Source: Pelecanus crispus
Lineage: Eukaryota; Chordata; Aves; Pelecaniformes; Pelecanidae
Assembly (NCBI RefSeq): GCF_030463565.1
Contig: NC_134660.1
Span: forward strand, 2,096,001 to 2,160,000
Direction: 5' to 3'
DNA length: 64,000 bases
Shown here: one piece after another, positions 6,780-7,186 of the stretch
Layout of the letters: each line of letters begins with the position of its first letter
Numbering within the stretch: position 1 is the first letter of the stretch
Translations under genes and position numbers: made by a program
Notes under the pieces: model-generated
Database searches by the model: none
Told to the model about the DNA's origin: nothing
What the model saw: the letters and a program-made list of their open reading frames with translations, nothing else

Positions 6780-7186
6780 CGCGAGCGCTCCTCCGCCCGT
6801 TCGAGGCTGGAGCCCCATCTGACCGCCTGTGTTTATCCCTTCATTTTCTGCCTGCCTGCTGGAAAGCGGCTCTGTCAGCTCCGGCATCATCTCTCCATCC
6901 TGAGCAGAGCGAGCCGTGCTCTGGCTGGGAGGGGAGGACGCAGCGGCTGAGCCGCGGGGCTGGCGAGCGAAGCGGCCGCTCTCTGCCGAGCATTGCCTTT
7001 CCACGCCGCGGGGAGCCCGGCAGCCCCTGCCCCACCGGCTCCTCGCTCACCATGCTGGATATTTTCATTCTGATGTTTTTTGCCATCATCGGCCTGGTGA
7101 TCCTCTCCTACATCATTTACATGCTCTAGAGCGATGCTGGGGAAGATGCGGCTCAGCATCAGCCTTGCAATCGAAGCATCGTCCAG
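6780..7186 (+). other. Presumed first exon and CpG-rich promoter of a micropeptide transcript
   Basis: The stretch before the short ORF at 7052 is CpG-rich around 6950-7050 and contains no ATG in any plus-strand frame from about 6652 to 7051, as expected of a clean 5' UTR. After the stop codon the sequence continues to gtccag, followed by the strong donor gtgagc at 7187. The transcript is therefore probably spliced, with the ORF complete in the first exon. The 5' end is not defined. Confidence 0.5.
7052..7129 (+). CDS. Single-pass membrane micropeptide, 25 residues
   Basis: A 25-codon ORF encodes a peptide starting [18 protein letters not shown] and ending YIIYML. It is almost entirely one hydrophobic helix: an acidic residue near the N terminus, then about 21 apolar residues with one glycine and one serine, and no charged C-terminal tail. 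The start has A at -3 (caccATGc) and is the first ATG for about 400 bases. The size and composition recall sarcolipin/phospholamban-type regulatory micropeptides, but the sequence is not one of those families. Its place just downstream of LASP1 on the same strand matches, from memory, the human LASP1-neighbour locus (LINC00672/LASP1NB); I have not verified that identity. The same frame is open upstream to 6581, but that extension is GC-driven and has no membrane or domain character. Function unknown; membrane location is inferred. Confidence 0.6.
   Translation: [25 protein letters not shown]

Follow-up and report, generated by a model that had tools for sequence, protein, structure and literature searches.

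A short open reading frame (ORF) located 4.1 kb beyond the stop codon of LASP1 in Pelecanus crispus, on the same strand, is very probably the avian coding orthologue of LASP1NB, with a membrane peptide made of a single helix as its product. The ORF occupies positions 7052-7129 of the plus strand in the window, the 64,000-nucleotide stretch of DNA analysed here (C18:2096001-2160000 of the genome). It runs from ATG to TAG and encodes 25 residues; the coordinates and the frame, as given in the initial annotation, are exact and can be read directly from the sequence. The putative assignment to a 25-residue membrane peptide draws on identity at 24/25 positions to a human small ORF (sORF), on the uniqueness of the match in the genome and on the distribution of G+C among codon positions. 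LASP1NB is already known as a gene in humans. In the bird, the ORF would be both transcribed and translated.

The human counterpart, gonzalez_2014:438290, is a sORF of 78 nt and 25 residues from a list of sORFs detected by ribosome profiling, in which every ORF bears Ensembl's small protein-coding label (PMC11351124). The list is printed without separators, and we read '43829078' as identifier 438290 followed by length 78, the size expected of 25 codons and a stop. The two peptides differ only at position 24, where the bird has M and the human L. Permuted versions of the bird peptide agree with the human sORF at no more than 15 of the 25 positions in 200,000 permutations. The sORF is printed without a gene name, and the main text of the paper contains no mention of LINC00672 (PMC11351124). 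We infer from position and sequence that the human sORF is the product of LASP1NB, given that the bird genome yields no other match and that this one lies directly after LASP1. A search of the genome (1.31 Gb, 310 contigs) with the peptide at E up to 10 gave one candidate and one match, this ORF, and no second match that could represent a paralogue, although so short a query could miss a diverged copy. We take the label 'gonzalez_2014' to denote a brain-tumour profiling study; if so, the sORF has been seen in brain tissue too.

Among genes reclassified from lncRNA to protein-coding, HGNC cites LINC00672, now renamed LASP1NB (HGNC:44353; PMC12807706). The initial annotation had named LINC00672/LASP1NB as possibly the same gene, and this link is supported by the HGNC change, by the near-identical human peptide (provided that the sORF is indeed the product of the gene) and by the presence of LASP1 upstream on the same strand. 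A study of cattle places LASP1NB in one interval with LASP1, FBXO47 and PLXDC1 (PMC12075139); the gene is therefore annotated in cattle too. A methylation table gives chr17:37081875 as the position of LINC00672 (assembly unchecked). One tension concerns the status of the human gene: the Ensembl release behind the sORF list labels the sORF as coding, yet LINC00672 is widely called a lncRNA.

The surroundings of the ORF in the bird correspond to those of LASP1NB. The final coding stretch of LASP1, with the SH3 domain and the stop codon, is found at 2781-2954 on the plus strand. In the PDB it matches the SH3 domain of human LASP1 best (3i35, E 1.6e-34), and nebulin and nebulette rank below this. 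This bears out the location downstream of LASP1 that had been proposed initially and provides an upstream synteny anchor: the ORF adjoins LASP1 on the same strand. On the human side, adjacency is taken from the gene's name, from the chr17 coordinate listed for LINC00672 and from the coordinates and strands of human LASP1. A downstream anchor is a stretch of the minus strand at 13330-13605 holding a piece of FBXO47 (PF24467, ARM_FBXO47, E 1.7e-5), with a score of 24.7 bits that is below the curated cut-off of 27. Further along, frames with a membrane segment and another stretch, at 39913-40566 and 48608-49291 of the minus strand, resemble exons of PLXDC1 and may represent them; the frame at 39913-40566 has no match in Pfam.

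Several further features of this region and genome were recorded. The only match to a known structural RNA in the window at Rfam gathering scores is a tRNA, the tRNA-Cys (GCA) gene at 60488-60559 of the minus strand, which is also called by ARAGORN. The genome carries large arrays of feather keratin genes (PF02422) at C18:6808885-8184424, C2:174713375-174945738 and C22:4021049-4183572, the first of them sharing the contig of the window. All 150 candidates scored, out of 414, exceeded the cut-off for this family, many of them on C18, and none was found in 14 control genomes. Such keratins are in keeping with a bird genome, although reptiles have them too.

The 25 codons of the ORF display a pronounced codon-position pattern, with G+C of 0.36, 0.12 and 0.76 in the first, second and third positions. 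Among the 59,924 open 25-codon frames of the window, counted with overlaps on both strands, this ORF is alone in combining a contrast between third and second positions of at least 0.64 with second-position G+C of at most 0.12. The low value in the second position follows from the hydrophobic nature of the residues. High third-position G+C, on the other hand, is the pattern of coding sequence in GC-rich DNA, comparable to that at the end of LASP1 (0.61, 0.35 and 0.88 in its final coding stretch). None of the seven Ile codons of the ORF is ATA, and all five Leu codons are CTG or CTC.

The start codon lies in the context CTCACCATGC (7046-7055), with A at -3, as noted initially, and C rather than G at +4. 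The closest preceding ATG, at 6650, is separated from it by 399 bases free of ATG, in good agreement with the figure of about 400 given before. The peptide has a GRAVY of 2.53, the highest among the 563 ATG-started frames of 20-60 residues in the window (both strands, every ATG), only one other of which reaches 2.0. The sole charged side chain is that of D3, the single acidic residue near the N terminus described in the initial annotation. The peptide would be helical throughout; at fewer than 100 residues and with one predicted membrane-spanning segment, it would fall among single-pass micropeptides in the general sense. The apparent insertion free energy summed over residues 4-22 is -4.85 on the Hessa scale, with scale values entered by hand, and these residues should therefore insert readily into a membrane. 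With a hydrophobic moment of only 0.03 per residue, close to zero, the peptide has no amphipathic face. On an ideal helix D3, A11, G14 and S19, which are small or polar, span 160 degrees: D3 and G14 are separated by 20 degrees, A11 and G14 by 60 degrees, and S19 is located another 80 degrees on. These four residues form a loose patch, where small side chains would permit tight packing against another helix, as they do in known regulators of membrane pumps.

In the mechanism that we infer, covering the helix, the route of insertion, the compartment and the regulatory action, an mRNA read from the ATG at 7052 would yield a 25-residue chain that is essentially one membrane-spanning helix. The exit tunnel of the ribosome holds about 30-40 residues. 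Being shorter than the tunnel, the chain would be released before meeting the signal recognition particle, and its insertion would therefore have to be post-translational. GET/TRC40 or EMC, which handle hydrophobic segments of the tail type, would probably provide the route, and the most likely destination is the ER or a membrane connected to it. In that membrane the peptide might bind laterally to a larger protein whose activity or stability it would tune, perhaps in neurons. The initial annotation had likewise pointed to regulatory micropeptides that bind larger membrane proteins, a plausible idea. We regard the chances of such lateral regulation as evenly balanced.

A true orthologue might instead act with no protein partner, for instance by assembling with itself within the membrane or by serving the quality control of membrane proteins as a hydrophobic signal. 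A peptide that is almost purely hydrophobic, has a single charged side chain and shows virtually no hydrophobic moment would suit this kind of action. Its conservation, on the other hand, extends to interchangeable residues: the 24 of 25 positions shared with human include Ile, Leu, Val and Phe, suggesting specific packing. The retention of even these aliphatic residues leads us to prefer specific lateral binding over bulk hydrophobicity, and we consider partner-free action unlikely. This reading is a variant within the coding claim itself, and the probabilities assigned to the two overlap.

Quite improbable is the view that the locus acts mainly as a lncRNA, with the peptide being incidental or merely drawing ribosomes to the transcript. 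The literature on LINC00672 largely treats the RNA as the agent, and about half of the titles among the matches listed name a lncRNA or non-coding RNA. Effects of LINC00672 overexpression have been reported in SH-SY5Y cells and in mice, in a paper whose main text does not contain the word peptide, and a recent review (2026) still puts LASP1NB among lncRNAs. The main texts of PMC6886504, a PhyloCSF paper, and of PMC10032668 mention neither LINC00672 nor LASP1. In the literature on LASP1NB/LINC00672 we found no description of a function or partner of the peptide, although supplementary tables could hold one; five fragments of the peptide, sought in main texts, occur only in one line of the appendix table of the sORF list. 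Against a mainly RNA-based function stands the current status of the gene in HGNC, where it is now coding. Incidental translation, moreover, is unlikely to preserve 24/25 residues between bird and human or to yield the codon-position pattern observed.

The structure of the transcript, as predicted from splice signals, also bears on the lncRNA reading. A predicted donor, CAG/GTGAGC (7184-7192), cuts at 7186/7187, so that the intron would begin at 7187; it is located 57 nt past the stop codon and departs from the consensus used by one mismatch, in line with the initial description of a strong donor at this distance, and is recognized by consensus match alone. The usual limit on the distance from stop to junction in nonsense-mediated decay is 50-55 nt. 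The distance of 57 nt is just beyond this limit and could favour decay of the transcript, a circumstance that would sit well with a lncRNA. The best-scoring candidate acceptor (7749-7768, ATCTCCTTTCTCTTCCACAG, pyrimidine fraction 0.88) would open a 3'UTR exon at 7769, and a candidate poly(A) signal AATAAA is present at 8138-8143, the only AATAAA or ATTAAA on the plus strand between 6424 and 10065. A two-exon transcript using the donor at 7187, the acceptor at 7769 and the AATAAA at 8138 is thus easily drawn from predicted signals. Upstream, a candidate acceptor at 6607-6626 (pyrimidine fraction 0.88) is predicted, and the exon carrying the coding sequence could begin at 6627 or at a promoter closer to the ORF. 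The same splice-site scan predicts an additional donor at 6550.

The exon had been described as CpG-rich. The region 6601-7200 does have G+C of 0.58-0.65, but its CpG enrichment is only moderate, with observed/expected ratios of 0.67-0.72, and a denser stretch is found elsewhere. Among the 200-base windows of 6001-8600, CpG is densest at 7801-8000, with G+C of 0.73 and an observed/expected ratio of 1.09. A promoter may be located within 7801-8000, downstream of the ORF and inside the putative second exon.

The possibility that the 25 residues serve as the membrane anchor of a longer tail-anchored protein appears very remote. The frame containing the ORF, in an extension that the initial annotation did not mention, is open from 6554 to 7129 (191 codons), and such a product could start at either of two ATGs in this frame, 6581 or 6650. 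The extension at 6554-7051 is judged non-coding: G+C is flat over 6581-7051 (0.64, 0.66 and 0.68 by codon position), as opposed to the strong pattern of the 25 codons and of the end of LASP1, and the 182-residue version starting at 6581 has no match in Pfam at E up to 0.001. Long open frames are also common here, with 88 stop-to-stop frames of at least 150 residues in the window, and the human sORF is listed at 78 nt. At 57900-59000 and 62400-63800 the window contains long stretches of frames with repeated short motifs (Ser-Ile-Pro or Gly-Ala runs), which look like minisatellite DNA and make long open frames seem more numerous.

Short ORFs are common in the window, as the 563 ATG-started frames of 20-60 residues attest, but the reading that this one arose by chance in intergenic DNA of high G+C is rejected as practically negligible in view of its close match to the human sORF (barring an artefact in the published list), the unique codon-position contrast and the shuffled sequences: none of 29,717 shuffled frames attains a GRAVY of 2.0 (0/11,945 from 300 local dinucleotide shuffles of 5001-9000 and 0/17,772 from 25 shuffles of the whole window), with the reservation that shuffles preserving dinucleotides break homopolymer runs and understate low-complexity hydrophobic frames. 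The initial annotation had held the combination of features to be rare by chance, and the top GRAVY, the shuffles and the human match all agree with it. The preferred reading remains that of a conserved coding sequence, the bird orthologue of LASP1NB.

Sequence searches do not place the peptide in a known family. The only Pfam hit (hmmscan, E up to 10) is the unrelated Viral_FcR at E 8.7, under its cut-off; the PDB gives no matches at E up to 10, and NCBIfam, a prokaryote-centred library, no meaningful match. A 25-residue helix gives searches of this type little power, and they were run without a positive control. The same limit applies to the SERCA-regulating micropeptides, none of whose Pfam families was matched by hmmscan at E up to 10, a search of low power at 25 residues. 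Pfam includes models for phospholamban and sarcolipin.

The conservation of this 25-residue peptide is striking. With 24/25 residues retained in the bird, the peptide, besides the RNA, is likely a seat of function. If it does act as a neuronal regulator, part of the published activity of LINC00672 as a lncRNA would be due to the peptide. It also offers a minimal helix for studying how very short chains are targeted to membranes and recognize their partners. We tentatively propose, at somewhat less than even confidence, that among conserved membrane proteins of land vertebrates that stand alone, LASP1NB is one of the smallest, and that its almost unchanging helix acts in neurons as the regulator of one particular membrane pump, channel or transporter.

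The closest known system is human LASP1NB itself (HGNC:44353, ENSG00000263874, formerly LINC00672), which, like the bird ORF, is located beside LASP1 and whose probable product differs from the bird peptide by one substitution, L24 in human against M24 in bird. The SERCA-regulating micropeptides phospholamban, sarcolipin, myoregulin, DWORF, endoregulin and another-regulin are likewise very short single-helix membrane proteins encoded by small ORFs, and several of their genes were once labelled lncRNA; the peptide encoded at 7052 is unlike them in that hardly any of its 25 residues would lie outside the membrane. As a putative lone helix it also resembles bacterial KdpF and CydX, small accessory membrane subunits of about 25-40 residues, each a lone helix that aids a larger membrane complex. 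These proteins are bacterial, and the likeness carries no claim of homology.
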